A stretch of 64,000 bases of DNA from Tomocerus qinae. Lineage: Eukaryota; Arthropoda; Collembola; Entomobryomorpha; Tomoceridae. A model generated the notes under the pieces. That model did no database searches, was not told the DNA's origin, and was given only the letters and a program-made list of their open reading frames with translations. The DNA is taken from contig CM034547.1 of the NCBI GenBank assembly GCA_020055645.1, positions 48,238,909 through 48,302,908 of the forward strand, written 5' to 3'. A program made the translations under genes and the position numbers. Below are positions 23,761-60,259 of this stretch, one piece after another; position 1 is the stretch's first letter, and every line of letters starts with the position of its first letter.

Positions 23761-24430
23761 CGCCCCATAACAAAAATAATTTTTTCATCAACCCAGTTGT
23801 ACAACATATAGAGCTTACACCTCTAACTGAGGCCTTAAGTGCACATTTCTCATGTTGTAGGAGAATATGAGATATGATACAGCTGCCATCTCTTGTTCTG
23901 TTCTGTTATTTACTCGCTCGGCTCGGTGTATTCACTGCATTGCATTTCTTCCAATCCCAATAGCCTGCATCTCCCAACCTACAACCTTCCTTACTACGTA
24001 CACATTGCCTGCTATATCATCGTCCCTCTCTCCTCCTCCAACTCGCGCATGATCAGAAGGCAAAAGTCTACGGCATTCCGTAAATTATAAATGTGGATTT
24101 ATGAATATTATAGAAAATAATGATTACAATGAATAAATATAAGAGTAACCTAAAATCTGCGACATTTGTGGCACTTATACACATAGAATCATTCATATCA
24201 ATCCTTTACGACATATCCCTCCCAGTCGGAAACCTCATGGCTCGGTACCGCTAGCGGTACAGAGCTATCTCTCCCTGCCTAGTCGGAGAGGGACATTATA
24301 TCCCTCCCAGTAACCTTTCCCTCCCCGCCTACAACATATATATTGGTAACTGGATCACTTTCCAATAAATTCGATACAGAATAACTTCACCATAATGCTA
24401 GTAGAAGGTAGATAGACTTAAACTACCATT

Positions 24431-40200: not shown

Positions 40201-43200
40201 AGTGTACAGTTTCCCGTGGCCACACCTGCAGCCGCAGCCTCCGCCTCTTACTCTTGGGTGACGACTCCTTCCGGCTACGAATCCACTTTGATGTCTCCCA
40301 CAGGTAAATCATCACATCATTAAATTGGGCATGTGAAATCCATTGTAATTGCATTAACAGCCCATTCTTGTTGACTGCGTTAAAGTTCATTTTAATCTTG
40401 TGCACAACCCACCGTTTTTTACGAATAGTAGGTGATTAAACTTTGTAAAGAGATTTTCTGATTATGAATTTGATAGTACTTTTTGTAGTTTTAAGACTGT
40501 GACTATATATCATCAAAAAATAAATACTTGCAACCGCCACAAACAGCAGAACTTAGAAATAATTTATAGTAAGTACGTGCAATGATTTGGAAGACGGATC
40601 TCACATTGTGTGTGTATAGTAGGTGTTTGTTTACATTTAGGTATTGTAAACTAGAAAAGTAATGTTGAGACTGCGAATAACTGTAACTTTTTATTTAGGT
40701 TGAGTTAGTTCTAAGAAGCGATAATAGTGTTTTAAGTCAGGATGATGATGAGTTAAGAGGGATGTGGAATGAGCAGAGAGCTATTATAGATAAACGCTGC
40801 ATATTAGAAGATGAAGTTAAATTTAATGTATTATTGATACGTTTTATGACCGGGACGTGGTTGGAGTAGGGAGATCTTGCCATGTCAGGGCTTTTGAAAG
40901 ATAATCTCGGCCACACTGCATTGGATATATATGAAGTGCGTTACGTTGGTGGCTCCTGCTCATACTCATTCATTAGGTTACAAATAGTCATCCAATGTGG
41001 ATGGGTGATGAATTATGGTAAGCTGGTTACCGACTGGTGCTCCAACTTTTGCTGTATAGTGTAAAAGCAATAAAGTGATGAAAGTAATTTGATCTGAACG
41101 AGCTACAATACAACTTAATGTTCTTGCTAACATAAATAGTAATGAGACGAAGGGTTAGATAAGAATAACATTCTGCAGTCCAGAAATCATAACAATAATC
41201 ATAATAAAGCATAGAAATCTCTAGTGCTCTTCATTCCAGAGAATTCTCTTGTTTTCTCTAGCCCAAATATTAATGATTCGACTTGTCAGTCTACAATGTA
41301 CATTTCACGCATATCTTTTTGTTATTGCTTCTGTTCTCATGTTTATTACTTGATTTAGATGTAAACTCTCTAATGCACGAATGTTCTTATTAATCATCCT
41401 ACATAAAATCAAAACTGAATCATGTTACACTTTTAACCGTGAACAATGTCAAGACATCAGATACACTCTTTACATAAGAATATTACAGAAAATACACACG
41501 AAAAACTCCAGGCTCGATCTTTCTCCTACTTTTATTGATAAAGCGAACAAAAGGGCAAACAACCAAAGTAATTCTCCTATTAAATTACAAACTATTGCTC
41601 TAGAGCAGATTGTCTTTGACAATCTACTGTGCTGCATGGCGCATTCTAATTATATAATCTACTCTTCACAATTTTATACAAGTTCGTCCGACAGAACTAA
41701 CTCCTGTATAAAGTAACAGAAGTACATGTCAAGAGACATACTTACTTACGGGTTAATGATTTTGTGGCTGTAAAAGAAGTAACTCTGGCAGTAAAATAAA
41801 GTCTTTGGGGCAAGGGTACTATAGGCAGTACGTCTAAGTTTTCGGGGCAGTAAAATAAAGTACAAAAGGCAGTAATACGAGTACTAGTGGCTGTAACAAA
41901 AATGATTTTTATTTAGTCAAAATTAAATCACAATTAGTTCAAAATTAAATCAAAATTAGTTCAAAATTAAATCAAAATTAGTTCAAAATTAAATCAAAAT
42001 TAAGTCTTCTGGCAAATCAGTGTCATATTTCCTAGGGCTTTAGATACACCTCGAGGTCTTCCCGCTTTGCTTTTTATAGCGATTGGTACCTGTTTAGCGC
42101 TGGGGAGAATTGTTGGCAATTTATTCATGCTGGCTATACCTATGATATATATGCTTACACATGTAGTTTTTTTGGTAAATTGGGCAAGTACATGATGAGG
42201 TTTTATAGTTTTCTTGGGAGTAGATGACGTGGCACATTGTGGTCTCTGAGGTCAAAAAATCGCTTACATGGTCACTTTTTATTGTCTTTGGAAAAATAAT
42301 ATATCACTTAGCTATCTTGATTGTGGTTTTTGTATTGAATATACCAGTCATTTTTAATGTCATCAGAGGCTTCTTCTTGAGTATTATATTTTTTACAAGT
42401 TTCCAGTTGATTTTAGTATTTTTCGTGGTATTATTGGTTCTATTTTCAATTTCTGAATCTGTGTCAGAATTGGAAGAATAAAGTTGGGAAGCCATTTTTT
42501 ACTAAAACCGAGTCTTCTAAATAAAAGAATCGAGTCCACGTCTGTGTCTATTCTGACCTTCTGACCACAACTCCAACGAAATAATTACCTTAAATTTCTT
42601 ATCTGATGTAAAGTAGATAGCAAGTTATCGCTGCATCGAACTACATCATGTTGAATTGTATTCATTTGTATGCTCAAGGAGTATGCAAAGCCTTAAGTCT
42701 TCTAATTAATGCTTTTCAATGAGACATACAATAATTTTTGTGCTACAGCCACTTATACCCGTCGTATAATTTTGAACTAATTTTGATTTAATTTTGAACT
42801 AATTGTGATTTAATTTTGACTAAATAAAAATCATTTTTGTTACAGCCACTAGTACTCGTATTACTGCCTTTTGTACTTTATTTTACTGCCCCGAAAACTT
42901 AGACGTACTGCCTATAGTACCCTTGCCCCAAAGACTTTATTTTACTGCCAAAGTTACTTCTTTTACAGCCCCATAAATCCCTACCCCTTACTTACTACCC
43001 TTCTAAAGTATTATTACACTTTAAATGCCATGTATCCTCAGATCATCAATTCTTATGTATGCTTTCGTAAGCATTTTCAGCCAAACAAAATAACGACAAA
43101 CCTCATTGACCTCATAGCGTGAGGAATGTTGCCTCAGATTTTCGGGTGGTCTTCAGTCCCAACTTACAAAGATATACAAAATCTCCAACCTCGTCATATT

Positions 43201-45118: not shown

Positions 45119-45538
45119 TGTGATGACCATGGGCTACTTGTAATACTTGTAATAACTGTAATAAAGCACAACCACTATAACACAATATTACACACATCCG
45201 GACGCAGTAACTGAGAGAGCCACTGGAAGATAACGGAGAGCCACAAGAGATTGCGGAGAGCCATCGACCCAAAATGAGATACCTGATATAAGGGAACGAC
45301 AAGGAGAATAACAGTCAGTCGGTCGGGAGCGGAGCCAGAGGAATCAAGTTGGGACTACGAAACGCACAACACAAACAATCACATTCTAAACTCTAAAAGC
45401 AATAAAGATTAAAACTCCACAAAATAACATCCAAAATTCATTCTCATTAAAAACACATAGACACCGAACAGAAGAGGCAGAATCTACCTTCGGTCAAAAA
45501 GAATATATTTTAAAGGCCAATTAAGACCGACCCTCACA
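45119..45538 (+). repeat. 5' LTR
   Basis: Begins TGTGATGACC and ends CCCTCACA; 420 bp. It holds a TATA-like TATAAGG (45287-45293), a poly(A)-type AATAAA (45401-45406) and three GAGAGCCA repeats ~20 bp apart near 45211-45263. The copy at 56786-57205 appears identical. Confidence 0.95.
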
Positions 45539-45556
45539 TGGCGCGGACTCGGAGCC
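45539..45556 (+). other. Primer-binding site
   Basis: TGGCGCGGACTCGGAGCC starts at the first base after the LTR and begins with TGG, the complement of a tRNA CCA end. I could not match it to a specific tRNA; it does not fit the tRNA-Trp gene in this window. Confidence 0.7.
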
Positions 45557-45674
45557 TTTTCTTCGGTTGACCGTGTTTCTTTTCTTCCCTAGTAGGGAGG
45601 GGGACACCTTAGTGTCGCAAATTCCCCCGGACAATTTCGAACATTTTCAGTGACTAAGTGAACAACCATGCAAC

Positions 45675-46070
45675 ATGGAAGTGACTGTTATAAACTTGGA
45701 CAACTCACTAGTCGGTGAGATCACAACCGAGAGCAACGTAATCCACATCGGTTTTAATTTCCCAATTACCATAGCACCAGGAGAGTTAACTTCTAAACCG
45801 ACGGGAATTACACTAAAACTACCACCCCGAGCACGGCTCATTCTCGAAAAAGGCGATATACACGACACCTTCCCCGGAATTAACGTTTTCAAAGAAGTCT
45901 TGACAGAATTGGCCGGCAGAGAAATCTTCGTTATTCTAGAGAACAAGACCAACCATAGGATAACAATCCCCGCTTTTTACTACATAGTGCAAGTTAGAGA
46001 GATTAACGATAAAGTGCTAAAAGTGATACCGATGAGAGCAGAAGACTGTGACGAAGATAGTGATGACTGA
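45675..46070 (+). CDS. dUTPase-like ORF 1 (catalytically degenerate)
   Basis: 131 residues. The strand order looks like a trimeric dUTPase beta-barrel: a PITIAPGELTSKPTGITLKL segment (the V-pTG-i-l-iP part of dUTPase), a middle corresponding to the motif 2-3 region, then EIFVILENKTNHRITIPAFY and IVQV in the place of IAQL. The motif 2 RSG, the motif 3 Asp/Tyr and the glycine-rich motif 5 are absent, so no dUTP hydrolysis is expected. A scaffold or binding role is an inference. An out-of-frame ATG at 45668 overlaps the start. It is clearly paralogous to ORF 3. The acidic tail ends in DEDSDD. Confidence 0.75.
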   Translation: MEVTVINLDNSLVGEITTESNVIHIGFNFPITIAPGELTSKPTGITLKLPPRARLILEKGDIHDTFPGINVFKEVLTELAGREIFVILENKTNHRITIPAFYYIVQVREINDKVLKVIPMRAEDCDEDSDD

Positions 46071-46090
46071 GTGACACTAACATTACAGAC

Positions 46091-46507
46091 ATGGCTTCAG
46101 TGATACACAATATACATATCCACCTACAAAGACCTCAACCACATCAAGTGCACAATCTACGGGAAACCAAATCTTTAGAACTAACTATCAGTGAACCCAC
46201 AACAATTGCCCCTAAATCTATCCAAATATTCTTCACGGGATTCATTCTCAAGAAAGTAGGCAGAGCAGTACTGGCCGTTATTCCTCACGAGGACGTTCTA
46301 CGATCTTCACACCTAACAGTACCTGGTGAACTAATTCTCCCAAATAGAGACACTGAAATCGCTATATCCATAAAGAACAAGAGCACAGTCCCAGTAACAT
46401 TAGCAAAAGGATTTGGTATAGCGAAATTGTCAGCTTTCGACAACAACAAACTGAACGTGAAATTCCACCACGATTATCTCCTCTGCGAAGAAGATAACAC
46501 CAAATGA
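46091..46507 (+). CDS. dUTPase-like ORF 2 (catalytically degenerate)
   Basis: 138 residues, starting 20 bp after ORF 1 stops. It shows the same pattern: a TTIAPKSIQIFFTGFILKKV segment, a variable middle, TEIAISIKNKSTVPVTLAKG and GFGIAKLSAF, the last closely recalling the GD-r-IAQL motif 4 of dUTPases. Active-site motifs 1, 3 and 5 are not visible. It is the most diverged from ORFs 1 and 3. The function is unknown; the fold assignment is by motif pattern only. Confidence 0.7.
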   Translation: MASVIHNIHIHLQRPQPHQVHNLRETKSLELTISEPTTIAPKSIQIFFTGFILKKVGRAVLAVIPHEDVLRSSHLTVPGELILPNRDTEIAISIKNKSTVPVTLAKGFGIAKLSAFDNNKLNVKFHHDYLLCEEDNTK

Positions 46508-46546
46508 GAACACCGATTAAACACCAATTCTGCGAACTATACAACA

Positions 46547-46924
46547 ATGGAAGTACGGGTAATCAACTTAGATACAACTCCCATTAACGAGAACACAGGT
46601 ATGTGCACGAGTATGTACTTAAACTTTAAAGAACCCATCATTCTAGCACCCCGGAGCGTAGTCGCAAAATCGACTAGAATCACGTTAGGACTCCCACCTC
46701 AAGCGAAACTTATACTCGAAAAATGTGACGTGTTTAACCAGTTCCCCAACGTAAAGGTATACACAGAACTCCTACAAAATCTCGCAAATAGAGAAATCTT
46801 CGTTACCCTTGAGAATTTAGCACCATTCCCAATCACTATACCAGCCGCACACTACATCGTGAAAATTAGAGAACTTAACAACAACCCACTTAGGGTCATC
46901 CCTGTCAACGCGCACGGGTTGTAA
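46547..46924 (+). CDS. dUTPase-like ORF 3 (paralogue of ORF 1)
   Basis: 125 residues. It shares the start MEV-VINLD, the block LAPRSVVAKSTRITLGLPPQ, KLILEK, NREIFVTLEN and PITIPAAHYIVKIREL with ORF 1 at roughly 45 percent identity by eye, so the two arose by duplication. The same active-site motifs are missing. It has no signal peptide or membrane segment. It is separated from ORF 2 by 39 bp and from ORF 4 by 26 bp, a compact polycistron-like packing that is unusual for a eukaryotic mRNA. Confidence 0.74.
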   Translation: MEVRVINLDTTPINENTGMCTSMYLNFKEPIILAPRSVVAKSTRITLGLPPQAKLILEKCDVFNQFPNVKVYTELLQNLANREIFVTLENLAPFPITIPAAHYIVKIRELNNNPLRVIPVNAHGL

Positions 46925-46950
46925 AGCCTGTTTCATAAATCGATCAAGAA

Positions 46951-47352
46951 ATGACTGAAGATATCTGGAAGATACAACTGACCTCCGACAGAACTAATGT
47001 ACTCAATACAGGGACACTCATCTGTAGTGGGATAGCAATCACCGTCACGGAGAATCTGTACTTCCCACCAAACTCAGCGGTCACGGTGAACGCAGGAATG
47101 AGAGTTAAAGTGCCCTATAAAGCGCAAATAATACCCGACACCGACTTTATCTCAAAATACCCCGCAGTGATAGACTGTTTTATGTTTGGCTCCAACTACA
47201 AGCGTAAAATTAAAGTAGTAGTGAAAAACGTTTCATCCAGGTCATTCACGACATCTCCCCATGAGACAATCTTCCACATAGCACTCAATCCACAGAGACC
47301 AGCAAGGCTACAATTCGTCAGCACAATTTGGGATGGCCACACAAACACTTAA
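46951..47352 (+). CDS. dUTPase-like ORF 4
   Basis: 133 residues. The pattern is FPPNSAVTVNAGMRVKVPYK, then a segment around VIDCFMFGSNYKRKIKVVVK whose VID...Y.rkIkV layout echoes dUTPase motif 3 (GxID-x2-YRGEI) with substitutions, then TSPHETIFHIAL in the motif 4 position. This is the array member with the most motif 3 resemblance. The C-terminal P-loop-like motif 5 is absent. Its stop overlaps ORF 5 by 20 bp. Confidence 0.72.
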   Translation: MTEDIWKIQLTSDRTNVLNTGTLICSGIAITVTENLYFPPNSAVTVNAGMRVKVPYKAQIIPDTDFISKYPAVIDCFMFGSNYKRKIKVVVKNVSSRSFTTSPHETIFHIALNPQRPARLQFVSTIWDGHTNT

Positions 47353-47773
47353 AGTTCAACTTACCCATCCCGGGGCACTTCTACCTCAATACACGAGCAT
47401 ATTTTCTCATAACTTACAAATACATACAGTGCACGACATTACAGTGGACCCGAGAAAGACAATTTGTGCCTTTACAGGAGTAGTAGTGAAAATCCCCGAA
47501 GGACACATAGGAATATTGAGCGAACCAGACAGTTTACACATCGATTTACTCGTACGAAACGACACCATCTCAGCCAACCAAGCCCGTATGGTCGACGTCG
47601 TAATTACCAATCTAGGAGAGACACCACTACAAATACCAGCCACCACACCAATTGCGTACCTGACCCTGAATCCTTCATGCCGATTGACACTGGAGATCGT
47701 CGACTCCATCTACATTCCGCCAGTTTATCCATCAGACGAAGACACTAGCGACGTCTCATCACTGTCACCATAA
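47333..47773 (+). CDS. dUTPase-like ORF 5
   Basis: 146 residues, starting inside the end of ORF 4 (ATGA-style overlap of 20 bp). It reads DPRKTICAFTGVVVKIPEGH, IGILSEPDSL where dUTPases have the g-i-RSGLA motif 2, and MVDVVITNLGETPLQIPATT followed by PIAYLTL (motif 4 position). It is the member closest in layout to a dUTPase, and also to the linker preceding the RT in this element's pol. Catalytic residues are lacking. The acidic tail contains DEDTSD. Confidence 0.74.
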   Translation: MATQTLKVQLTHPGALLPQYTSIFSHNLQIHTVHDITVDPRKTICAFTGVVVKIPEGHIGILSEPDSLHIDLLVRNDTISANQARMVDVVITNLGETPLQIPATTPIAYLTLNPSCRLTLEIVDSIYIPPVYPSDEDTSDVSSLSP

Positions 47774-47933
47774 GGCTAAGCAGTTTTTATTCTTTTCTTT
47801 ACATAGTAGCATAACACTGTAGAACTAAGCTTATACGACCACCTTCAACAGATAAGGCTTAAATAGTACGAGCATAATTATAATTATCGATAGTCTAATC
47901 CCCTATAACCCACTAACACTGACCGGGTTCTAT
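47774..47933 (+). other. Short leader before the retropepsin ORF with a splice-acceptor-like site
   Basis: TTTTTATTCTTTTCTTTACATAG (ending near 47807) is a strong pyrimidine-tract plus AG, about 125 bp before the ATG at 47934. It could be the 3' splice site of a subgenomic mRNA for the downstream ORFs. This is inference only. Confidence 0.35.
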
Positions 47934-48359
47934 ATGAGCGAACCCGAGGCGATAACCGTCCAGGTAGTGGGCCTGCAAGTAGCAACCCCGCTGCTAGACC
48001 CGGAGTACTATCACTCGAGCCTAGCGATATGTAACAATAAGGTAACCAAGATTTTTATAGACACGGGTTTAAGTCTCACGATAGCTCATATAGATCTAGT
48101 AGACCCAGAGGAAGTAAGGGAAACGTCTCTTAAAGTGGTGATCTCCACGGGAGAGAACTTAAATATTCTGGGCCAGGCCAACATTAGGTTAAACATTGGT
48201 GGTAAAGACATTTTCCACAAGGCCATCCTAGTGAGCAATTTACCCCAGAGTAGCGTGATAGTAGGGAGCGATTTTCTGGAAAAAGCAGGAGCTCGATTAG
48301 ACTATCACCATAAGACCTTCTCTATAGCTGGAGGAGAAGCTATCGCTTGGTATCGATAG
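47934..48359 (+). CDS. Free-standing retropepsin-like aspartic protease
   Basis: 141 residues with a complete retropepsin layout. There is a catalytic DTG in KIFIDTGLSLTIAHIDL, the flap-like STGENLNILGQANI, the hydrophobic-Gly VIVGSDFLEKAGARLDY and a terminal strand. It is homologous to the protease in the element's main pol frame, which has DSG and the matching IIGNDILDKLKARIDY. Retropepsins act as dimers to cleave retroelement polyproteins. The ORF has its own ATG and stop, is upstream of gag, and is not fused to anything, which is abnormal for this class. The catalytic triad looks intact, so it may be active. It could act alone or heterodimerise with the pol protease. Confidence 0.85.
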   Translation: MSEPEAITVQVVGLQVATPLLDPEYYHSSLAICNNKVTKIFIDTGLSLTIAHIDLVDPEEVRETSLKVVISTGENLNILGQANIRLNIGGKDIFHKAILVSNLPQSSVIVGSDFLEKAGARLDYHHKTFSIAGGEAIAWYR

Positions 48360-48398
48360 AGCCGACCCATACTCACATATAGTAACGGGATAAGCATT

Positions 48399-48590
48399 AT
48401 GCACCCTGTAATTAGGACAGCATTGACTATAGCCTTTCTGCTGGCAGTGACTGCTGTCTATCAGGGGTGTAGGAAACAATACTCTGACAGGCTGTGTCGA
48501 TATTACACGATAGCTTACATCTTTCAAACGTCCTTACTATTCTTCACCATCATCTTCGTGTATACCCTCATCCTATACTCTTTAGAATAA
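48399..48590 (+). CDS. Small two-helix membrane ORF
   Basis: 63 residues. It has a first hydrophobic segment (ALTIAFLLAVTAVYQG), a short basic Cys-containing loop (CRKQYSDRLC), and a second hydrophobic segment (AYIFQTSLLFFTIIFVYTLI) near the C-terminus. The ATG follows the protease-like stop by 39 bp. I do not recognise it. The size and layout recall small viral membrane proteins, but that is analogy only. It could be a chance frame; it is retained because hydrophobicity is confined to two well-formed segments. Confidence 0.45.
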   Translation: MHPVIRTALTIAFLLAVTAVYQGCRKQYSDRLCRYYTIAYIFQTSLLFFTIIFVYTLILYSLE

Positions 48591-48779
48591 CTCTAGAATG
48601 GACAGACAAAACCCTCTAGACAGTTCCACACCAATAGCCCCTGGCGACCGACAACCTCTCCGTCCCTCAACTTCGGGACTACCGAACACAGTCCAAAGCA
48701 GGGAGTCAACCTAAATCCCCGTAGGGTTTGGAACTTTGGAGACCCCATCCCGCCAGAGGACGGAGCTTCCACCAATTCA

Positions 48780-50711
48780 ATGGACAATTGGGGAGTGGAA
48801 CCACCCGTCTCGCAGGCGGCCCCTTCCGGAGTCACAACAACCAGCGCTCCGGTCACCTCAGTAAGCAACCCCGTCCCAATCAGTAGCTCCATATTTCCCA
48901 ATTTCTATCCCCTCCTGACCCCAGTGGGGAATTATCGGTCGGACACCGTGTTTCATACTTTAGGACCTCAGAATAGAGAACCACCTCCACCCACGGGTCC
49001 GCCACACCTCCTACGAGCGGAGGCGGCTATGCGAGCTTATCAAGCTTACTATAATAACCTCGCCCGACAGGAGGATAGAGACAGGGAGTTATTTCAGGAC
49101 GAGGAGGGAGATGCCGACCAACGTCAGGTCGCCGCTGATCAGAATGTACCGAGAAACATAGCCAATAAGGATAACACAGGCCGCGGAAACGACAATGGTC
49201 GGGGAGACACATCAGTCGGTACCACCGCCGAACGAACTTTCGCTCAACTACGAAGAGACCTAGAAGATGTTCCTGGGAATCCACCCCAATTGATTAGAAA
49301 TAGGTTCCTCCTAGACCAGTTAAATGCCCCACAAGGTCCAACTTTCCGGCCGGGACAGCGGCCCAGCCGAAATTCACCACCACCACATAGAGCCCCCAGG
49401 AGATCGTTCGGAATACGACCCAAGCCTATTAGGCCAACCACATTACCCCCAGTAGAGGAGGAACCCCAGAACATAACTTTCGTCCCTAACACAACCCCAG
49501 GTGGAGCACCCATAGCAGTCCCTATTCCTACACTAACCATCAGCCAGATACAACCTGGAACCATTGCCGCATACAGAGGAGATGTTGACGATGCAGAAGA
49601 AGCAAGAAATTTCATTGAAAGGTACGAGGGCATCACCTCGGGCATGACTTCCAAAGACAGGGTCCGGCATATTGTTCGATTCCTAGAAGGGACAGCATAT
49701 AGATGGTTAACCTTGTGGCAAGTAGAGCTCACACAGGAATTGGATAGAGATACTACCGGAGCCATCAAAACGAGATGGGAACTACTCCGGTGGCCAGAGC
49801 TGAAAGCTCGATTCCTAAAGGTTTTTGCGAAAGGTTCTGACTGTGCATATATGACATGTAAACAGCTTGATAGCGAGACTGGTAAAACGTTCTACTTCAG
49901 GATGTTGAAAGCCCATGAGGACGCAGGCAAGCCATTAACGGAAGACCAACTGGTCAAACTCATGATAAGCAACCTTAACGAAACTTTTAGGGATAAAGTA
50001 GACTCAAGCCGCTATGAGGAGCTTGAGAAACTCTCTTTACGCTTGCAGGAGTTAGATAACAAGCGGAGTGTTCGACTCAAAGAAATAAGAGAAAACAAGT
50101 ATAAGAGACAGATAGCTGTATTGACTGACGACCGTCTCAAAGGTTACCACCAGCCTAGCCGTTTTAAGGAAGGCTCCTTTTCGGGAGCCGAGTCCTCTGA
50201 CTCGGAGCATGACTCCAGATCTAGGGCACGCGTTAGGTACTCAGGTAGACACAGACCCAGAGTCAGCGTCTCCCCTGTAACCATGCGAGATGGGAGTGAC
50301 CGTCAGGTCAGTAGTAGCCTCAGGAACACCCAATGCTATACCTGTAAAGGCTGGGGACACACCTCGAGGGATTGCCCCTCGGATACGTACTATGACTCCG
50401 ATAGCAAATCTCGCGTCAGGTTTAGTAGCCGGAGAGACCATAGCAGATCCCCACAGCGAGCCAACAGGTACAGCGACGGTAGGGACACTCCTCCGTGGGG
50501 AGGAAGGCGAAGTTCGCGATCACCGAAGGGTAGGGAAAACCCAGGTTACACCTCAGACCGGAGGAGGTATCAACAATCCCCCGAAAGACATCGCACAGAA
50601 GGGGTGTCCCCAATTCCCACGGCAAGGCATAGGAACATGTCTCCAGCAAGGAACAATGTAAAAACTGAACCTAAGCTGGAAAGTAAAATGAAACAGGAAA
50701 ACAACGATTAG
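48780..50711 (+). CDS. gag: Gag polyprotein
   Basis: 643 residues. A Pro-rich, disordered N-terminus (~1-250) is followed by a Retrotrans_gag-type capsid region (~265-440; ARNFIERYEGITSGM, then RFLEGTAYRWLTLW, WPELKARFLKVF and LMISNLNETFRDKV). One CCHC zinc knuckle lies at 519-532 (C519, C522, H527, C532). A strongly Arg/Ser-rich C-terminus should bind RNA. I took the first ATG; the frame is open upstream to 48597, and a separate 38-codon frame starts at 48598. The stop at 50709-50711 is overlapped by the -1 protease frame, which opens at 50687. Confidence 0.93.
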   Translation: MDNWGVEPPVSQAAPSGVTTTSAPVTSVSNPVPISSSIFPNFYPLLTPVGNYRSDTVFHTLGPQNREPPPPTGPPHLLRAEAAMRAYQAYYNNLARQEDRDRELFQDEEGDADQRQVAADQNVPRNIANKDNTGRGNDNGRGDTSVGTTAERTFAQLRRDLEDVPGNPPQLIRNRFLLDQLNAPQGPTFRPGQRPSRNSPPPHRAPRRSFGIRPKPIRPTTLPPVEEEPQNITFVPNTTPGGAPIAVPIPTLTISQIQPGTIAAYRGDVDDAEEARNFIERYEGITSGMTSKDRVRHIVRFLEGTAYRWLTLWQVELTQELDRDTTGAIKTRWELLRWPELKARFLKVFAKGSDCAYMTCKQLDSETGKTFYFRMLKAHEDAGKPLTEDQLVKLMISNLNETFRDKVDSSRYEELEKLSLRLQELDNKRSVRLKEIRENKYKRQIAVLTDDRLKGYHQPSRFKEGSFSGAESSDSEHDSRSRARVRYSGRHRPRVSVSPVTMRDGSDRQVSSSLRNTQCYTCKGWGHTSRDCPSDTYYDSDSKSRVRFSSRRDHSRSPQRANRYSDGRDTPPWGGRRSSRSPKGRENPGYTSDRRRYQQSPERHRTEGVSPIPTARHRNMSPARNNVKTEPKLESKMKQENND

Positions 50712-52153
50712 CAGGCGATAATGGAGACCATCCCTGCACAATCCTAGGTAAACGGTCTCCAGACAAAACCACTCTCACTGCACCACACACAACACTTAAA
50801 AAGAGAAAAGCTACCGAAGTAGCCACCATAGGTAAAGGAAAGCAATTGTTTTGCAACATAAGTTTAAACGGCCACCCAACCAAAGCACTTATCGATTCAG
50901 GCGCGGGCCTTAGCGTGGCTCACGTCAGCACTCTAAGAGATAGGCAATTAAGGAGAACCAAATATAAGGTAGTGACAGCAAGTGGAGAACCCTTAGACAT
51001 TTTAGGAGAAGCCGTATTTAGTGTTAAGATAGGTAGAATAGTTATTAGACATAGCACAATTATCATAGGTAACCTCCCAGTAGGGACCTTTATAATAGGT
51101 AACGACATCCTGGACAAACTTAAAGCTAGAATCGACTATAGTAAAAGAACAATTAGATTGAGTAACGGAGAGACTATCAACTGGGAATATTCCCAGATGG
51201 GAAAGATTGTACAACCAGAACTAGGGGAGCCCGAGCGAAGGGTGACTAGCCACCTCTACACTTCGACTAAGACGTGCACCGTCAATAAAGATTGCGAAGA
51301 CCAGGGCAACCGCTCTGTGACTCCGACTAAGACGTGCACCGTCAATAAAGATTGCGAAGACCAGGGCAACCGCTCTGTGACTCCGACTAAGACGTGCACC
51401 GTCAATAAAGATTGCGAAGACCAGGGCAACCGCTCTGTGACTCCGACTAAGACGTGCACCGTCAATAAAGATTGCGAAGACCAGGGCAACCGCTCTGTGA
51501 CTCCGACTAAGACGTGCACCGTCAATAAAGATTGCGAAGACCAGGGCAACCGCTCTGTGACTCCGACTAAGACGTGCACCGTCAATAAAGATTGCGAAGA
51601 CCAGGGCAACCGCTCTGTGACTCCGACTAAGACGTGCACCGTCAATAAAGATTGCGAAGACCAGGGCAACCGCTCTGTGACTCCGACTAAGACGTGCACC
51701 GTCAATAAAGATTGCGAAGACCAGGGCAACCGCTCTGTGACTCCGACTAAGACGTGCACCGTCAATAAAGATTGCGAAGACCAGGGCAACCGCTCTGTGA
51801 CTCCGACTAAGACGTGCACCGTCAATAAAGATTGCGAAGACCAGAGCAGCCGCTCTGTGAATTCGGCGATAAGCCAAAATAATTCAATGATTGAAACTAA
51901 TAGCTATACATTAAACAAATCTAACTTATTGCATAATGCTAATCATCCGCTTCACAGCTTGCGCACCCCACCTGACATCGCTGCACAATTACCATACCAC
52001 CACCTCAATAACGAACAATACGTTAACGCTATCACTTTCACTGCACCCCTTCTGTACATAACGCCAGCACCATTTGCTTGCCCGCTAACAGCATATCAAT
52101 GGTTAATATTAATTTACCTGCTTCTATTTCGGCCGACAAGACATTTTACATAA
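50687..52153 (+). CDS. pro: Pol-frame protease with ten 20-residue repeats
   Basis: This frame lies at -1 relative to gag and overlaps its last 25 bases, the usual gag-pro frameshift arrangement; it has no ATG of its own near the start. The retropepsin domain carries ALIDSGAGLSVAHV (catalytic DSG), a flap region (VTASGEPLDILGEAV) and IIGNDILDKLKARIDY. It is followed by ten copies of a 60-bp unit (51264-51863) encoding TKTCTVNKDCEDQGNRSVTP, and then by a tail that closes at a stop in the protease-RT linker region. The remaining linker lies in another frame (52027-52206), so protease and RT are not in one open frame in this copy. Confidence 0.88.
   Translation, partial: NETGKQRLAGDNGDHPCTILGKRSPDKTTLTAPHTTLKKRKATEVATIGKGKQLFCNISLNGHPTKALIDSGAGLSVAHVSTLRDRQLRRTKYKVVTASGEPLDILGEAVFSVKIGRIVIRHSTIIIGNLPVGTFIIGNDILDKLKARIDYSKRTIRLSNGETINWEYSQMGKIVQPELGEPERRVTSHLYTSTKTCTVNKDCEDQGNRSVTPTKTCTVNKDCEDQGNRSVTPTKTCTVNKDCEDQGNRSVTPTKTCTVNKDCEDQGNRSVTPTKTCTVNKDCEDQGNRSVTPTKTCTVNKDCEDQGNRSVTPTKTCTVNKDCEDQGNRSVTPTKTCTVNKDCEDQGNRSVTPTKTCTVNKDCEDQGNRSVTPTKTCTVNKDCEDQSSRSVNSAISQNNSMIETNSYTLNKSNLLHNANHPLHSLRTPPDIAAQLPYHHLNNEQYVNAITFTAPLLYITPAPFACPLTAYQWLILIYLLLFRPTRHFT
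50696..50702 (+). promoter_or_regulatory. Candidate -1 frameshift heptamer at the gag end
   Basis: G-GAA-AAC is in the right phase for slippage from the gag frame into the protease frame, inside the only 25-bp overlap window and 7 bp before the gag stop. It departs from the XXXYYYZ rule in its first triplet, so it is a weak candidate. Confidence 0.3.
51264..51863 (+). repeat. Perfect 60-bp tandem repeat, ten units, in frame
   Basis: Nine consecutive 60-base units are identical in every base, and the tenth differs only at its end (GGGCAAC to GAGCAGC, then ATTCG). The 60-bp period is 20 codons, so the reading frame is kept. Each unit has two Cys (CTVNKDC). Near-perfect identity implies recent unequal exchange or slippage during replication. 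Confidence 0.95.
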
Positions 52154-52192
52154 CACCTAACGTAAAGACAGAAGTAGAGTACGGACTAATGA

Positions 52193-55100
52193 TTATCCTC
52201 TATAGTTGACAAACAGAGTCATGGGCTGACTATCATTAATCTCAATAATCAACCTACTACTATATACCACAACCAAAATCTAGGTACCCTAACAGATTTA
52301 ATAGAATATAATCAAACGGAACAAGACGAGGCACGAATAGCCTCCCTTAGAGAATACAAACGACCGGCATTCGATATCAAACATTTTAATGTAAACCCGA
52401 AAGCCAAACATCAGGATGTGCAAAGATTAGCAAGAGTTCTGAAGAAATATTACGATGTGTTTGCATTCAACACATCCGAATTAACAGGGACAGATGTAGT
52501 CACACATAGTATAGACACAGGAAACTCTAAACCCATACGACAGAGGTTATGGAACAGATACTCCAAAGCGGAGAATGACATTATCAAGGCACAGATAGCT
52601 GAGATGTTGGCTGCAGGAGTGATCACACGTTGCACTAGTCCCTACAGCGCTAATGTAGTTTTGGCTAAGAAGTCAGACGGCACCTATAGATTTTGTGTCG
52701 ATTATAGAGCATTAAATAAGATCACTACCTTCCAGAGTTACCCATTACCTAACATACAGGACATACTAGATTCCCTATCGGGGAGTAGTAGCTTTACTAT
52801 TCTAGATGCCATGACGGGATTCTGGCAAATTCTCATGAATCAGGAAGACGGTTCTCATTTAAAGACCGCTTTCATCACTAAATTCGGAACATTCGCTTAC
52901 GCATCTATGCCTTTCGGACTCATGGGAGCCCCGGCAACATTTTGCATGGCTATCGACCAGATATTAGGAGACATCAGAGACCAAGTGTCTTGGTATATGG
53001 ACGATGTGATTTCCCACGGGAAAACTCACGAGGAGAACACAAGCAAATTAGAGAAAATTCTAGAACGGTTTAAGACCCATAAGATGAAACTTAAAATTTC
53101 TAAATGCAAATTTCTTTACGAGGAGGTAAAGCTATTGGGCTCTATAGTAGATGGCAAAGGAGTCCGTCCGGATACGGAAAAAGTAGAAGCATTAATTAAG
53201 ATGCCTTTGCCAGATACCCTTAAGAAATTACGCTCATTTTTGGGCGCTGTCAACTTCTACAGAAAACATATCCCTAAATTGGCATACGAAGCAAAAGTAC
53301 TGTATGACATGATAAAAGGCACAGATAGGCTGAGCAAATTACGTCCATGGACGGATGTTGGTAGGAAAGCATTTAAGAAAATTATCAAAATGTTAGCGGA
53401 TGCTACATTGCTCCATCACTATGACCCAAGCTTGAAAATAGAAATACATACGGATGCATGTGATTACGCTGTGGCCGCAGTACTCATACAAATAAGAAAG
53501 TTAAAACCAACTAGCGATAATAGAAAAGCCAAGCGAATCGAAGAACCTTTGCAATACATGAGCCGAGTACTGACAGGAAACCAACTTAAGTGGTCAATTC
53601 CTGAGAAGGAGTGTCTAGCACTGATGTTGAGCTTAGACGCATTTCGCCCATACATAGCCTTAAAACATTTTACAGTACGTACTGATCATCTAGCCCTTTC
53701 TTACCTACAGACAGTAAAAGACCCCATGAAATCGAGAATAGGCAGATGGGCATTGAAACTAAACATTTTTAAATGTGACATAATTCATAAGTCAGGAATA
53801 ACCAACAATGTCCCGGATGCACTTTCGAGAAATCCATTTGATAAACCCCTCGACATCAACAAGACTCTACACATAGAAACTTATTCCTTGAAGACAATAG
53901 AAGGGAACCAAACAGATAAAGACACTTGCCTGACAGAGGATGCACAACAACTAGAAGGATTACTAGGAATAGACATAGGACAATCACAGTTACTCGACGA
54001 ACAGTGTAAGGATATCCTTTTAGATATCGACAAACACCCCAATTATTCTTTCGAGGAAAATATTCTATACCATAATTCTAGCAAAGGCGACAAGAAAATT
54101 CTTGTCCCAATGGCGTTAAGAGGAATCATTATCGAACTCTTCCACGACTCAGCCTGGGCAGGTCACCTTGGCCACTTAAAAACAATTTTCCGTATTAAAG
54201 ATAGATTATTCTGGCCTGGTATGACCAAAGATATTAAAACATACATTAATAAATGCCTAACGTGTCGAAAACACAAGTTACCTCTGAGGAAACGACCAGG
54301 ACTACTAAAACCCATAGAAGTTAGCTCATCGACCAAGTTTGTTAGTCCTGGAGAATTTTACTGCATAGATATTTTGGGACCATTTCCCGAGTCACGTAGA
54401 GGTTACAAACACATTGTCATTGCGACGGACTACGTGACTAGGTTTGCTATAGCTGCACCAACCAAGACAGCAAACGCAGTCAAGGTCGTCGACTTTCTGT
54501 TCGAACGAATCGTGAGCACATTCGGTGGTTTCAAGACACTGTTATCAGACTGTAATCCTTGTTTCCATTCTTGGCTGCTTTTCGCTTTAGCTGAGAAACT
54601 GAGATTCAAGCACAACATCGCTAATCCCTACTGCCACAACATAGTGGGACTGGTCGAACGTTTTAATAAAACAATAGCCAGCATATTAGCCAAAATTATT
54701 CCACAGGAAGAAGGATTTGATAGTTGGTGTACTTACATAGGATATGCGTTATTCGCTTACAATACTTCTCTCCATCCGAGTTTGATGGAGAAACCGTCAT
54801 ATCTATTTTTAGGACGGGATGTGATACATCCTGTTTACCAAGGCTTAGATTTACCCACAAACTCTTTAACAGCGGACGTCATACTGGCCCGATATAAGAA
54901 TGCACTCGCCTCCGCTAGAGATCATTTAATAATCGCACAGGCTAGAAATAAGAAATACTTCGATAAAGATAGAGGAGACATCCAACTCCGAATAGGCGAC
55001 CTAGTCCTTTACGAAGTCGCTACCCGTAGGAAAGGAGAGCCTGACAAACTCCAACCTAAACTTAAAGGTCCATACAAAATCATCAGTAAGTTAGGCGATT

Positions 55101-55372
55101 TAACATTCGCAATTACTCCAGTAGACAAACCTGGCAAAATATACATAGTCGGAGGCAGACTGTTACACCTATATATCCCAGGGAACCTCCTTGAAGAAAC
55201 TCCTCCACATAGTCTCGTCGGAGACACCTCAGACCCAGTAACCGGAGATCCGACACCCATACACGACGAGTCACCCACTACAACCTCATCCTCCAACAGA
55301 CCCCCTCTTCGTCGCTCACCCCGGTTAGCAGGGAAACATGTGGACGATTCTCGTAACTCTGATGGCAAGTAG
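52193..55372 (+). CDS. pol: Pol: reverse transcriptase, RNase H, integrase
   Basis: The open frame starts after a stop at 52190-52192; the RT part is clear from about 52418. Residue numbers count from 52418. RT: catalytic Asp in ILDAMTGFWQI (~130) and YMDD (193-196). RNase H: HTDACDYA (from 344) to VPDALSR. Integrase: a His/Cys zinc finger (HLGHLKT...CLTCRKHK) and the DD35E triad, Asp 651 (CIDILGPF), Asp 711 (LLSDCNP) and Glu 747 (GLVERFN) with 35 residues between the last two. A GPY/F-type module follows (KLKGPYKI). There is no chromodomain. All catalytic residues are present. The first ~75 codons form a dUTPase-like linker (LTIINLNNQPTTIYHNQNLG). The last 35 bases overlap the env-like ORF. 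Confidence 0.94.
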   Translation, partial: LSSIVDKQSHGLTIINLNNQPTTIYHNQNLGTLTDLIEYNQTEQDEARIASLREYKRPAFDIKHFNVNPKAKHQDVQRLARVLKKYYDVFAFNTSELTGTDVVTHSIDTGNSKPIRQRLWNRYSKAENDIIKAQIAEMLAAGVITRCTSPYSANVVLAKKSDGTYRFCVDYRALNKITTFQSYPLPNIQDILDSLSGSSSFTILDAMTGFWQILMNQEDGSHLKTAFITKFGTFAYASMPFGLMGAPATFCMAIDQILGDIRDQVSWYMDDVISHGKTHEENTSKLEKILERFKTHKMKLKISKCKFLYEEVKLLGSIVDGKGVRPDTEKVEALIKMPLPDTLKKLRSFLGAVNFYRKHIPKLAYEAKVLYDMIKGTDRLSKLRPWTDVGRKAFKKIIKMLADATLLHHYDPSLKIEIHTDACDYAVAAVLIQIRKLKPTSDNRKAKRIEEPLQYMSRVLTGNQLKWSIPEKECLALMLSLDAFRPYIALKHFTVRTDHLALSYLQTVKDPMKSRIGRWALKLNIFKCDIIHKSGITNNVPDALSRNPFDKPLDINKTLHIETYSLKTIEGNQTDKDTCLTEDAQQLEGLLGIDIGQSQLLDEQCKDILLDIDKHPNYSFEENILYHNSSKGDKKILVPMALRGIIIELFHDSAWAGHLGHLKTIFRIKDRLFWPGMTKDIKTYINKCLTCRKHKLPLRKRPGLLKPIEVSSSTKFVSPGEFYCIDILGPFPESRRGYKHIVIATDYVTRFAIAAPTKTANAVKVVDFLFERIVSTFGGFKTLLSDCNPCFHSWLLFALAEKLRFKHNIANPYCHNIVGLVERFNKTIASILAKIIPQEEGFDSWCTYIGYALFAYNTSLHPSLMEKPSYLFLGRDVIHPVYQGLDLPTNSLTADVILARYKNALASARDHLIIAQARNKKYFDKDRGDIQLRIGDLVLYEVATRRKGEPDKLQPKLKGPYKIISKLGDLTFAITPVDKPGKIYIVGGRLLHLYIPGNLLEETPPHSLVGDTSDPVTGDPTPIHDESPTTTSSSNRPPLRRSPRLAGKHVDDSRNSDGK

Positions 55373-55982
55373 CCTTCTCCCAGTCCCGTGCTCAGGAGCC
55401 GAGATTGCTGACAATCATTTCCCGTTCCGCGAAAGGGAACGTACCCCTATTCACCCCTCATCTCGGGACATCACGGAGACATCAACGGTCTCACCCTCCG
55501 AATCCCCGAAACAACAGCCTACCCAACCGGTAGAACGGGAAAAGGTACCTCGAACGCCCGAAGCCCAAGTGCCACCGATCCACTTCGCCAACATAACCTA
55601 CCCGGTATTATCAAACCTTAGTTATGGATCTTGCAGTGGAACCCCTATCCCCTACAGGACCCACTCCGTTTCGTGGACCCTGGTCGTCACCGGAATTGGC
55701 GGTGTCGCTCTGGGAGTCATGTTCGCCACATGCAACTCCTACTTTGTGTTTAAACAATTTTACCTCTTCGCCAATGGGATTGCCTTAACTAGTTTTCCAC
55801 CACCGGTGGATGCCTTGGCGGATGCCAACGTTCAGGTAGGTCCCTCCAGAGTCTTACCTACTATCGAGGACGTCAACGCCCTCAATACTGGACCCTTAGT
55901 TATCGTTAGCCTCACCTTACTAGCCGCTATCGCGATCATCATAGTGTTGATTTGTTACCTATTTAAGAAAATGTGTCAATAG
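55338..55982 (+). CDS. Env-like signal-peptide membrane glycoprotein
   Basis: 214 residues, starting inside the end of pol. A clear signal peptide (MWTILVTLMASSLLPVPCSG) is followed by a Pro/Ser/Glu-rich ectodomain with NIT and NLS N-glycosylation sequons. One hydrophobic segment lies around VVTGIGGVALGVMFATC and a strong C-terminal transmembrane helix around IVSLTLLAAIAIIIVLICYL, with a short KKMC tail. The position after integrase is that of env in envelope-bearing gypsy elements, but the protein is about a third of normal Env size and shows no furin site or fusion-peptide pattern I recognise. It may be a reduced envelope or an unrelated membrane protein. Confidence 0.72.
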   Translation: MWTILVTLMASSLLPVPCSGAEIADNHFPFRERERTPIHPSSRDITETSTVSPSESPKQQPTQPVEREKVPRTPEAQVPPIHFANITYPVLSNLSYGSCSGTPIPYRTHSVSWTLVVTGIGGVALGVMFATCNSYFVFKQFYLFANGIALTSFPPPVDALADANVQVGPSRVLPTIEDVNALNTGPLVIVSLTLLAAIAIIIVLICYLFKKMCQ

Positions 55983-56768
55983 TCAGCCAGTCAGTCACTT
56001 ACATGGTAAGAGTACAGCAGTTTACTCTCCTCCTTCCTTATCTTGATTTCTTGTACAGCTCTGGTTTTATTATTTTAGCCAGTACATCCGCTAGCTTAAG
56101 ATAAACTTACTAACATTCTACGCCTTTAAATTTAATGTGCCCTTTACATCCTGTGTAATTATCAGCCCCATTAGCATAAACATCCATTAATGCACTGTAC
56201 GTTCTGTTTCTAGAAAGACCAGGAACTACTGGAGAACATGGCCTACCTCGTCTGCTACAAGCTGGGTGGACACGCTCTCCAGCGCTTCCTACGACGTACT
56301 AGAAGACGTCTTATTAAATCACAATTTTAATTTATGTTGTTTTCATTTTATGCCTTATGGTTAATATACATAGACTAAGACGCCCCGTTCATTGTCACAT
56401 CCCTTGTTTAGGTTATCATTTATTGTACCCCCTTTTCACTCGTTACAAAATACTAATTTTCTTTTGTTAATCTCATTGTATGATGTTACATCACATTACT
56501 ATGTTTAGTTATTCCCGAGCCGTCATAATTCACACGTATGGACGCCTGGCCAGGTTTTTGCCCTTCAAACGTCATCATGCTAGGACAAGGTTTTCCCTGG
56601 ACCCATAGCCAGAATTGGAGGTTGTCCATGTCCCGACGGCACTTCACTCCTTTCGTTTCTGTGCAAATATATATCATTTATTCTTAACAGCAGTTATTGT
56701 CAATAGCCGTTTCCTTAGCCTCGCCCATGGTTAATCTATTTTAATTTTCTCCTCTTAGTTGAAAATTT
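55983..56768 (+). other. 3' untranslated part of the LTR element with a possible spliced mini-ORF
   Basis: The region has a strong donor (ATG|GTAAGAG after 56005) and a strong acceptor (TTCTGTTTCTAG ending 56213). Splicing them fuses an ATG in frame to a 38-codon frame ending at 56330, with an Arg-rich C-terminus (FLRRTRRRLIK). Without splicing, the frame can start at ATG 56238 (30 residues). The rest appears noncoding; a 63-codon antisense frame (56486-56677) has no support. Confidence 0.4.
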
Positions 56769-56785
56769 AGAAAAAGTAGGGGTAG
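56769..56785 (+). other. Polypurine tract
   Basis: AGAAAAAGTAGGGGTAG ends at the base before the 3' LTR, the expected site of plus-strand DNA priming. Confidence 0.8.
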
Positions 56786-57205
56786 TGTGATGACCATGGG
56801 CTACTTGTAATACTTGTAATAACTGTAATAAAGCACAACCACTATAACACAATATTACACACATCCGGACGCAGTAACTGAGAGAGCCACTGGAAGATAA
56901 CGGAGAGCCACAAGAGATTGCGGAGAGCCATCGACCCAAAATGAGATACCTGATATAAGGGAACGACAAGGAGAATAACAGTCAGTCGGTCGGGAGCGGA
57001 GCCAGAGGAATCAAGTTGGGACTACGAAACGCACAACACAAACAATCACATTCTAAACTCTAAAAGCAATAAAGATTAAAACTCCACAAAATAACATCCA
57101 AAATTCATTCTCATTAAAAACACATAGACACCGAACAGAAGAGGCAGAATCTACCTTCGGTCAAAAAGAATATATTTTAAAGGCCAATTAAGACCGACCC
57201 TCACA
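56786..57205 (+). repeat. 3' LTR
   Basis: 420 bp, no difference seen from 45119-45538. It is followed directly by ATACC, whose first four bases repeat those before the 5' LTR. Confidence 0.95.
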
Positions 57206-58311: not shown

Positions 58312-60259
58312 ATGCTTGCAGTAATAATTATTCTTTTCATATTTTTACAGCCATCCAAGACCATAAACGATCAAAAATTCTCCAAATTAATTTCCAATAT
58401 GATACACCAACACTTCTGGGATTGTACAATGTTCTATATTGATGGAGCAACAAGATTAAAAGACTACAGCTATTTCTGTTTCGGATTACCCCTCTCTGTT
58501 AGTGCATCATACTGAGAAAGCAATATACTCCGTTGATCTTGCATCTAACATATCTATGAGAACTAACACCATTCGACATTCTTCTCACTGCTCAATCGTA
58601 GTTACCCAGATTTTTGAGTTTAATAGTAATTTTCAGAAACTTTTCATCAAAAACCTTATTCCCGATCGCTTTGAAATAACTCGGAAGGACGAGGATCATT
58701 ACTTATTTATCAGCAACAGTGAGAAAATCGAAAGGGAGTTGTTACTCTCCCCATTATCGCTTCTTATTCGGTATAAACTAATGATTCGTTCGAAAGGAGA
58801 CACAATACTAGGTCATATGTTGTGTTTCTATTGTGCAGAGGGAGGTTCTCCCAAAATATTGACTGTTGATTTAAAAAAGGATAAAATTAGAAAACTTTTT
58901 CCAGACCTTACAAAACAGTTCAACGGCCATGTTATCCGATTGTCCGCTAACACAGGAATTGATGCAATTTATGTTTCCGAGAAAGTAAGAAATCAATGGA
59001 AAAATAAACGGGGTATTCATGTTGAAGTATTTTCTATCATCATGAAACAATTTAATTTTACTTATACTACTCGTCCGTCAACAGGATTTGAAAAGTTTCC
59101 CTCTGGAGGTTCGGGATTAAAATTACCCAATGGGACATGGATTGGCTGTGTCGGAGATGTTTATTATGGAAAAGCAGATTTAGCAATGAATGTATCACCA
59201 AACACAGGAAGATTGGGAATTGTTACTTTCACCTCATCTTTGGTATACATTTCCATCTCTTTTGTAACAGCAAAACCTAAAGCATTACATCCATGGCAAA
59301 ATATTTTCAAAGCATTTGACCTTATGACATGGGCTACCATTGCTTCATTAGCCATTTTTACAGGCTCTATTATTTTATTATTCGAAGCATTTCAAATGAA
59401 GTCGAAGAAAAATAACTCAACTAAACCTTGGACAGTAGGAAAAGCTATTTTTTCAATTTATGGAACTTTCACTGGACATTCTACTTCTGACCCGTCATCA
59501 ACAGCAGCAAAAGTTAACTATGCATTTTGGCTATGTTTTACTTTAATTATTTCTGCAGCTTATGCATCTAAACTTACATCGTTCATAATGCTACCTGGCT
59601 TTGAAATTCTTCCGAAAACGTTCCAAGACCTCATAGATGACAACTATAATTTCAAGTGGGGAGCTTCTGCCGGATTTCGAGGAGGACTTGGAGAAATGGT
59701 TTTCAAACTTTCTTCGAATCCAGCGATGAGGAAAATTTACCACAAGATGATGCTCCAAGCAGATCGTGGGATCTGCGCTAAGAATTGCCTAGTTTCAAGA
59801 CAAGCGTGCATTGATTGGGACCGAGTTATTGAATACTCTTTGAAGTTGAATTTCTCCAGCAGCGACGGTAGTCATCCATTTTCGCTGGCGAAACAGTCTA
59901 CTTATTTCGTCCCAAATAGCTGGATTACAAGGAAGAGGGAGATTTTCTTTCCTAATTTCAATAAGGTCATTATCTATGCATACGACAGCGGATTACTGGA
60001 AAGAATGTTGCAAAATGATTGGTCAAAACAAAGAGCTGCCAAAATTCAGAGCAAAAAAGGCCAAAATACTGTAAATACAATGCCTTCTCTACATATCACA
60101 GAAGGTCCTAAACCGTTTACGCTTCATAACATAAAAGGGTGCTTTTGTGTCCTATTGGCAGGATTAACTTGCAGCATTTTATGCTTTGTTGTAGAATTTA
60201 CTAAACATTACTTTAAATCGATTCATTCGAAGACTCATTCTGAAGTAATGATGATTTAG
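58312..60259 (+). pseudogene. Ionotropic receptor copy 1, frameshifted near its N-terminus
   Basis: IRs are ligand-gated cation channels of chemosensory neurons derived from ionotropic glutamate receptors. ATG 58312 opens a signal peptide (LAVIIILFIFLQPSKT) and ~50 residues. The homologous frame then continues only in the +1 register from about 58460 to the stop at 60257-60259. Aligned to copy 2, this copy lacks 2 bp around 58450-58475. Downstream everything is intact: the S1 region with an Arg in NTGRLGIVTFTSS, M1 (TWATIASLAIFTGSIILLF), a pore loop (SIYGTFTGHSTSDP), M3 (ISAAYASKLTSFI, counterpart of SYTANLAAF), S2, and M4 (LLAGLTCSILCFVVEF). It may be a pseudogene, a sequence error, or a gene using an unseen upstream exon. 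Confidence 0.85.

Follow-up and report, generated by a model that had tools for sequence, protein, structure and literature searches.

In herpesviruses, several paralogous dUTPase-related proteins occur in one genome; some, such as UL82 and the betaherpesvirus dUTPase homologues, have lost the activity, and non-enzymatic roles are described (available part of PMC11599850, citing Davison and Stow 2005). Betaretroviruses and non-primate lentiviruses encode dUTPases of trimeric fold that are part of Gag-Pro or Pol polyproteins and are as a rule enzymatic, and enzymatically inactive dUTPases are said to retain regulatory functions (available part of PMC4531489). Ty3/gypsy elements of fungi, bdelloid rotifers and planarians have a dUTPase or dUTPase-like part, which in the available text of the sources is one domain within pol, at the N- or C-terminus of Pol or between protease (PR) and reverse transcriptase (RT) (PMC2864245, PMC5408684, PMC6431247). 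Small ORFs ahead of gag, sORF1 and sORF2, are found in the Drosophila MDG1-group elements, where they are spanned by RNA without evidence of splicing (available part of PMC11952523).

Here, we describe an LTR element in which five dUTPase-like ORFs (ORF1-ORF5) precede gag. Like the herpesvirus proteins, these are several dUTPase-derived paralogues in one mobile genome, with enzyme activity lost in at least some; as far as the available text goes, the herpesvirus proteins have three domains and belong to large DNA viruses, whereas our ORFs are single-domain, lie in an LTR element and have a catalytic counterpart in sister elements. No ORF of the element matched herpesvirus Pfam families at E<=1, and one sister enzyme had two such matches below the cut-off (0.046 and 0.064). 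With the retroviral dUTPases, as these are described in the available text, our case shares the trimeric dUTPase fold and a reverse-transcribing host element, but the retroviral proteins are parts of polyproteins and as a rule enzymatic. In contrast to the pol-embedded domains, the ORFs described here are free-standing and lie before gag, one and catalytic in the sister elements, five and dead in our element. The MDG1 group resembles our element in its small accessory ORFs ahead of gag, the last of which encodes a membrane peptide of ~60-70 aa. According to the part of PMC11952523 available, sORF1 (~110 aa) is predicted to be helix-turn-helix and thus differs, by description, from the dUTPase fold; the MDG1 membrane peptide is a FAST-like, single-TM peptide of ~70 aa, whereas the 63-aa ORF of our element shows two hydrophobic segments and lacks an MGxxxS/T start (N-myristoylation motif).

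Our main reading, to which we assign a probability of about 0.5, is that dead dUTPase-fold ORFs occupy a former enzyme slot and now serve as trimeric, host-engaging accessory proteins, with ORF2 tied to a chromosomal gene cluster. The turn from dUTPase to non-enzymatic effector, known from herpesviruses, would then be found in an LTR retroelement. The intact single-gene state persists in the sister elements, and a related dead cluster is found in the host chromosome. Both ends of the path are thus present in one genome, so that the change from an enzyme fold to an accessory-protein family, and gene exchange between host and transposon, become testable.

Layout of the element and its five ORFs

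The window, i.e. the whole stretch of 64,000 nt that was analysed, lies on contig C2 of the searched genome (334 Mb, 115 contigs). It contains a complete LTR element of 12,087 nt (45119-57205; Table 1), which is of the Ty3/gypsy type (Metaviridae) by its LTRs, target repeat, gag and the order PR - RT - RNase H - integrase. The two LTRs are identical, and the direct repeat ATAC is found on both flanks. Directly after the 5' LTR, TGGCGCGGACTCGG is primer-binding-site-like by its position and TGG start; no tRNA match was assigned to this stretch. The closest Pol proteins are 43-48% identical and are followed by named gypsy/Ty3 Pol proteins, mostly of arthropods (best 120 of 1210), and no match to pol was found in viral contigs. 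At 52090-52418, a stretch like the PR-RT linker of related Pol proteins lies in a frame other than that of PR and RT, and the PR/RT frame has stops. The pol of this copy would be either broken or decoded unusually.

Table 1. Features of the LTR element, in window coordinates.
Feature	Position	Strand	Remarks
5' LTR	45119..45538	+	420 nt, ATAC target repeat just before; identical to 3' LTR over 420/420 nt
Primer-binding-site-like stretch, starts TGGCGCGGAC	45539..45556	+	Abuts 5' LTR, TGG start
ORF1, 131 aa, predicted dead dUTPase-fold protein	45675..46070	+	
ORF2, 138 aa, dead dUTPase relative, kin of chromosomal cluster	46091..46507	+	
ORF3, 125 aa, ORF1 paralogue (49% identity)	46547..46924	+	pN 0.336 vs pS 0.787
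ORF4, 133 aa, dead dUTPase relative	46951..47352	+	Alone matches PDB dUTPase at 6e-4
ORF5, 146 aa, dead dUTPase relative, 20-nt overlap with ORF4	47333..47773	+	Alone matches PDB dUTPase at 1.5e-4; model and fold search
Second aspartic-protease-like ORF, 141 aa, IDTG	47934..48359	+	40.6% identity over 106 aa to the element's PR, E 1e-25; Pfam below cut-off
63-aa membrane ORF, two hydrophobic segments	48399..48590	+	~59-aa two-segment ORF at same place in sister elements
gag, 643 aa, CCHC knuckle	48780..50711	+	Pfam zf-CCHC 0.0014, slightly under cut-off; 25-27% identity to three sister gags, E 2e-31 to 3e-29
Protease ORF, then ten 60-nt tandem repeats (51260-51860)	50846..52153	+	Pfam gag-asp_proteas 9.5e-8
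RT - RNase H - integrase ORF, 984 aa, tool-given start GTG	52418..55372	+	Pfam RVT_1, RNase H and integrase zinc domain above cut-off; rve below
214-aa ORF past pol, two hydrophobic segments	55338..55982	+	No Pfam match
3' LTR	56786..57205	+	ATAC target repeat right after

Downstream of the 5' LTR and ahead of gag, ORF1-ORF5 are packed into 2.1 kb, all on the + strand, each starting with ATG and encoding 125-146 aa. The gaps from ORF1 to ORF4 are 20, 39 and 26 nt, and the starts of ORF2, ORF3 and ORF4 are the first ATG past the preceding stop. The sizes, gaps, overlap and separate ATGs given in an earlier note on this DNA agree with the coordinates. That note had placed the ORFs upstream of gag in an LTR retrotransposon; the element is indeed complete, but a protease-like ORF and the 63-aa membrane ORF intervene between ORF5 and gag. 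The protease-like ORF is whole and identical only in four copies of the element. Chance ORFs can be ruled out: when the region was shuffled 1000 times with dinucleotides preserved, a + strand ORF of >=125 aa was absent from 977 shuffles, 23 contained a single one and none contained two or more. ORF1 and ORF3 are 49% identical, whereas identity is 16-25% in the six other pairs shown.

The short gaps, first-ATG starts and single overlap would fit reinitiation along one RNA, or splicing. A scan of the sequence found no clear splice or reinitiation signal for ORF1-ORF5. With splice matrices, no strong donor was found before ORF1 (the best has 4.4 bits, at 45592); stronger donors are predicted within ORF1 (8.0 bits) and ORF3 (10.7 bits), and acceptors in the leader (13.3 bits at 45596), in ORF5 (11.1 bits) and past ORF5 (10.8 bits at 47807). 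The two AATAAA are both confined to the LTR, and ATTAAA is also present at 46516 and 47209.

Descent from trimeric dUTPases

A profile of the five ORFs matched solved dUTPases at E 1.3e-7, and against 5.8 billion proteins it found one dUTPase at 0.018. Single ORFs stay below the Pfam cut-off for the trimeric dUTPase family (PF00692), and ORF4 and ORF5 each match a dUTPase in the PDB (Table 1). ORF1 and ORF5 were modelled, and dUTPases were the top fold-search match of both predicted models. An unrelated fold, which the earlier note had named as a possible refutation, is thus ruled out by the fold searches with these two models. The dUTPase descent that the note proposed is borne out by profile, single-sequence and predicted-fold evidence, which agree; the strand pattern that it saw in each ORF has its counterpart in the two predicted models. 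We conclude that the five ORFs are diverged relatives of trimeric dUTPases without the active site, and that ORF1 and ORF5 are predicted to have the fold.

The PR-RT linker of the closest Pol relatives (P0002-P0005 and P0007; 43-48% identity, metagenome sources) is weakly dUTPase-like. Cut out by a pattern that worked for five of the six proteins tried, it was compared within a set of 29 sequences and scored best against a sister dUTPase (22.1 bits). Its best score to the five ORFs was 5.4 bits (ORF4), and an origin of the ORFs from this linker was rejected.

The slot before gag in sister elements

A Pfam search of the genome for dUTPase yielded at least 48 matches. We compared the element to a sister set of ten other elements with 52-55% RT identity (87 of 615 candidates were scored). 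In nine of the ten, a dUTPase match precedes the RT match by 4.1-5.1 kb and shares its strand; for the tenth (C1:75.57 Mb) there is no dUTPase among the matches listed. Nine dUTPase loci were read, seven in these nine elements and two (C1:59.23 and C1:37.18 Mb) where gag sequence adjoins and no RT is among the matches listed. Each locus has a single free-standing dUTPase ORF of 141-150 aa ahead of gag or a gag fragment, and in eight of the nine an ORF of ~59 aa with two hydrophobic segments lies between dUTPase and gag (L024 was missed by the pattern). The two sister dUTPases tested in Pfam scored 129-130 bits. The loci read are a subset of the genome's dUTPase matches and do not include, e.g., a C9 match with two stops and a match at C3:51.14 Mb; two more loci, C1:57.62 Mb (L066) and C4:13.39 Mb (L019), were excluded since they do not belong to the family studied here.

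The kinship extends to other parts of the elements. The gag of our element matches three of four tested sister gags at 25-27% identity (Table 1) and the fourth, L025, at the zinc knuckle only; its PR matches four of four sisters at ~30-34%, and tandem repeats after PR are also present in three sisters (L017, L025 and L027). Among the matches listed, no dUTPase is near five elements with 49% RT identity, and the 5' parts of the two that were examined contain no dUTPase-like ORF. In one of these two (C3:51.297 Mb; L068, 2309-2692, - strand), two single-TM ORFs of ~60 aa lie before gag; in at least one of them, the TM segment is followed by a basic stretch, a feature described for sORF2/FAST-like peptides.

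The dUTPase slot is hence common to the sister elements, with the catalytic residues kept in the seven read, and our element has an expanded, dead version of this slot as well as a second protease-like ORF. The earlier note had considered the arrangement unusual. As the sisters usually have a single catalytic, free-standing dUTPase ahead of gag, the place is not unique; what sets our element apart is the presence of five dead copies there.

Loss of the catalytic residues

The motif-1 Asp, motif-2 Arg and Ser, motif-3 Asp and motif-5 Phe are catalytic residues in the dUTPase family. For the motif-3 Asp, this is also stated in the available part of PMC4531489. We aligned ORF1-ORF5 with nine sister enzymes and inspected 19 positions, with motif positions taken from the family's known motifs and read off the sisters. 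One dUTPase-bearing locus (L026), in which the C-terminal end continues into other sequence, was therefore excluded here and from the trees and dN/dS estimates. All nine sister enzymes have the motif-1 Asp, motif-2 Arg and Ser and motif-3 Asp, eight have the motif-5 Phe, and in six all 19 positions are intact. None of these five residues occurs in any of the five ORFs, which confirms residue by residue the earlier observation that catalytic motifs are absent. All five do have two of the inspected residues, the Asn preceding motif 4 and the motif-4 Ile. ORF1-ORF5 should therefore not work as dUTPases, as judged from these residues.

Since sister elements have a working dUTPase at the same place, the ORFs could still be enzymes, if mixed trimers of them restored a site for nucleotide binding and so prevented uracil from entering the element's cDNA. 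With the five key residues missing from all five ORFs, no mixture can supply them, and we give this explanation almost no chance.

Selection and copies of the element

Of the synonymous sites, 79% differ between ORF1 and ORF3, against 34% of the non-synonymous ones (pS 0.787, pN 0.336; Fisher p 5e-14). ORF1 and ORF3 have thus stayed under purifying selection since their split, which supports the suggestion of a neofunctionalised family. For ORF2, ORF4 and ORF5, the element contains no comparable partner, and its copies are 98.5-100% identical where aligned; between ORF2 and the chromosomal cluster genes described below, pN is lower than pS, with pS saturated.

Five copies include the ORF1-ORF5 region. 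All five frames are open in the window and at C1:38.28 Mb; the copy at C1:20.33 Mb has ORF1-ORF3 and no match for ORF4 or ORF5, the copy at C4:2.32 Mb lacks the end of ORF3 and the start of ORF4, and the copy at C2:11.99 Mb has frame breaks in the region. The region is gone from one further copy, at C1:58.00 Mb. The earlier note had named frequent stops in other copies as a possible refutation. This refutation did not materialise, as a second copy has all five frames open, although three of the five have lost or broken some ORFs.

These three defective copies, together with the loss of catalysis in all five ORFs, are what would be expected of decaying passengers, i.e. functionless dead copies carried by a young, successful element. 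The excess of synonymous change between ORF1 and ORF3 argues against this, as do five long open frames that were never seen in the shuffles and the same dead form being kept under selection in the chromosomal cluster. We consider passengers a poor explanation, with a small chance of being correct.

ORF2 and a chromosomal cluster of dead dUTPase genes

At C1:46.03-47.03 Mb, we found a tandem cluster of 24 stop-free dead-dUTPase genes over 1 Mb (L023, L052, L053 and L059-L064); the reading covered 14 of these genes in full and a fifteenth partially. The genes belong to at least three classes and often form A-B pairs; one more gene of this kind is located at C1:136.5 Mb (L065). No gag or pol was found beside the cluster genes in the 25 kb read. 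With dN/dS of 0.22-0.47, the cluster is a tandem family of dead dUTPases under purifying selection.

ORF2 is far closer to the 24 cluster genes than to its neighbouring ORFs. In a larger tree, ORF1 and ORF3 also join ORF2 and the cluster, without resolution and where long branches meet; the tie between ORF2 and the cluster thus rests on two further comparisons, one of them a tree built without ORF1 and ORF3. In this tree, 16 chromosomal rows form one clade with a support of 66/42. A profile of ORF2 and the cluster found no protein at E<=0.1 and nothing in viral contigs. The earlier note had treated the ORFs as five copies of one family. All five are dUTPase relatives, but they are unequally related, and because ORF2 groups with the cluster instead of its neighbours, to regard them as copies of a single element gene is probably an oversimplification. 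Exchange of dead-dUTPase genes between element and host is likely on these comparisons.

The presence of catalytic elements and dead cluster genes in one genome, and the close kinship of ORF2 and the cluster, would also suit a host-element conflict. Dead cluster subunits would join or cap the sisters' trimeric dUTPases and block them, and the window ORFs would be the answer to this, or the element's own weapon against rival elements. The active sites of cellular dUTPases are built at the subunit interfaces of the trimer (available part of PMC11599850), which favours such interference. We regard this conflict as unlikely, albeit the strongest of the rivals. A broader scenario, which strikes us as rather unlikely, is that the dead-dUTPase family moves between element and host, that the host's roughly two dozen genes cap or join the elements' trimeric enzyme, and that the window element escaped this by giving up its enzyme in favour of five dead paralogues, of which one is common to it and the host clan.

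A proposed host-directed accessory role

Under our main reading, the membrane ORF and gag would have been present first, and a catalytic free-standing dUTPase would then have been added ahead of them in the ancestor of the element lineage. On the branch leading to the window element, duplicated and perhaps host-derived dUTPase-fold genes may have filled the slot, with catalysis given up; on the same branch, the protease may have been duplicated (the 47934-48359 copy). ORF1-ORF5 would now be non-enzymatic accessory proteins, most likely binding scaffolds in the form of homo- or hetero-trimers. A dUTPase that loses its active site would still have the trimer surface, and binding through this surface would be the simplest use. 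By analogy to the herpesvirus dUTPase-related proteins, such scaffolds may engage host proteins. The chromosomal cluster could be the source of ORF2 or its domesticated descendant.

Alternatively, the ORF1-ORF5 proteins could have a structural role in the element's particle and be produced in large amounts from the 5' portion of the RNA. The ORFs take up 2.1 of 12.1 kb ahead of gag, and UL82 (pp71), a herpesvirus relative of the fold, is a tegument protein according to a reference title in PMC11599850. However, sister elements manage with one enzyme at the same place, and there is no link between the ORFs and Gag; a role as particle parts therefore seems improbable. Overall, a host-directed accessory role appears to be the first choice, with particle parts and mixed-trimer conflict as the main rivals.

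We file the case as a redeployed dUTPase and not as a dUTPase; redeployment itself is already known. Searches of the open-licence literature turned up neither a free-standing catalytic dUTPase ahead of gag nor five dead paralogues at this place, and no chromosomal cluster of the same dead family was among the results.

Further observations

Four near-identical loci at C1:21.53, 67.16 and 82.32 Mb and C3:51.05 Mb (L044-L047, L054-L058) have a two-piece dUTPase. A BIR-domain ORF lies near one of them, and near one there is an ORF of 332 aa that we take for a piece of DNA polymerase B, without Pfam support. These loci are perhaps Maverick- or adintovirus-like elements.

Elsewhere in the window, tandem ligand-gated-channel (Lig_chan) genes lie downstream of the element (58502-60259 and 63200-64000), 4.8 kb apart; together with the arthropod names among the Pol relatives, they point to a probable arthropod host. 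The stretch 22001-24000 has a strong GC skew of -0.56, unlike the remaining window. At 41760-42976, there is a 210-nt inverted repeat that is 99% complementary, with arms 797 nt apart and 11/22-nt tandem units inside the arms.
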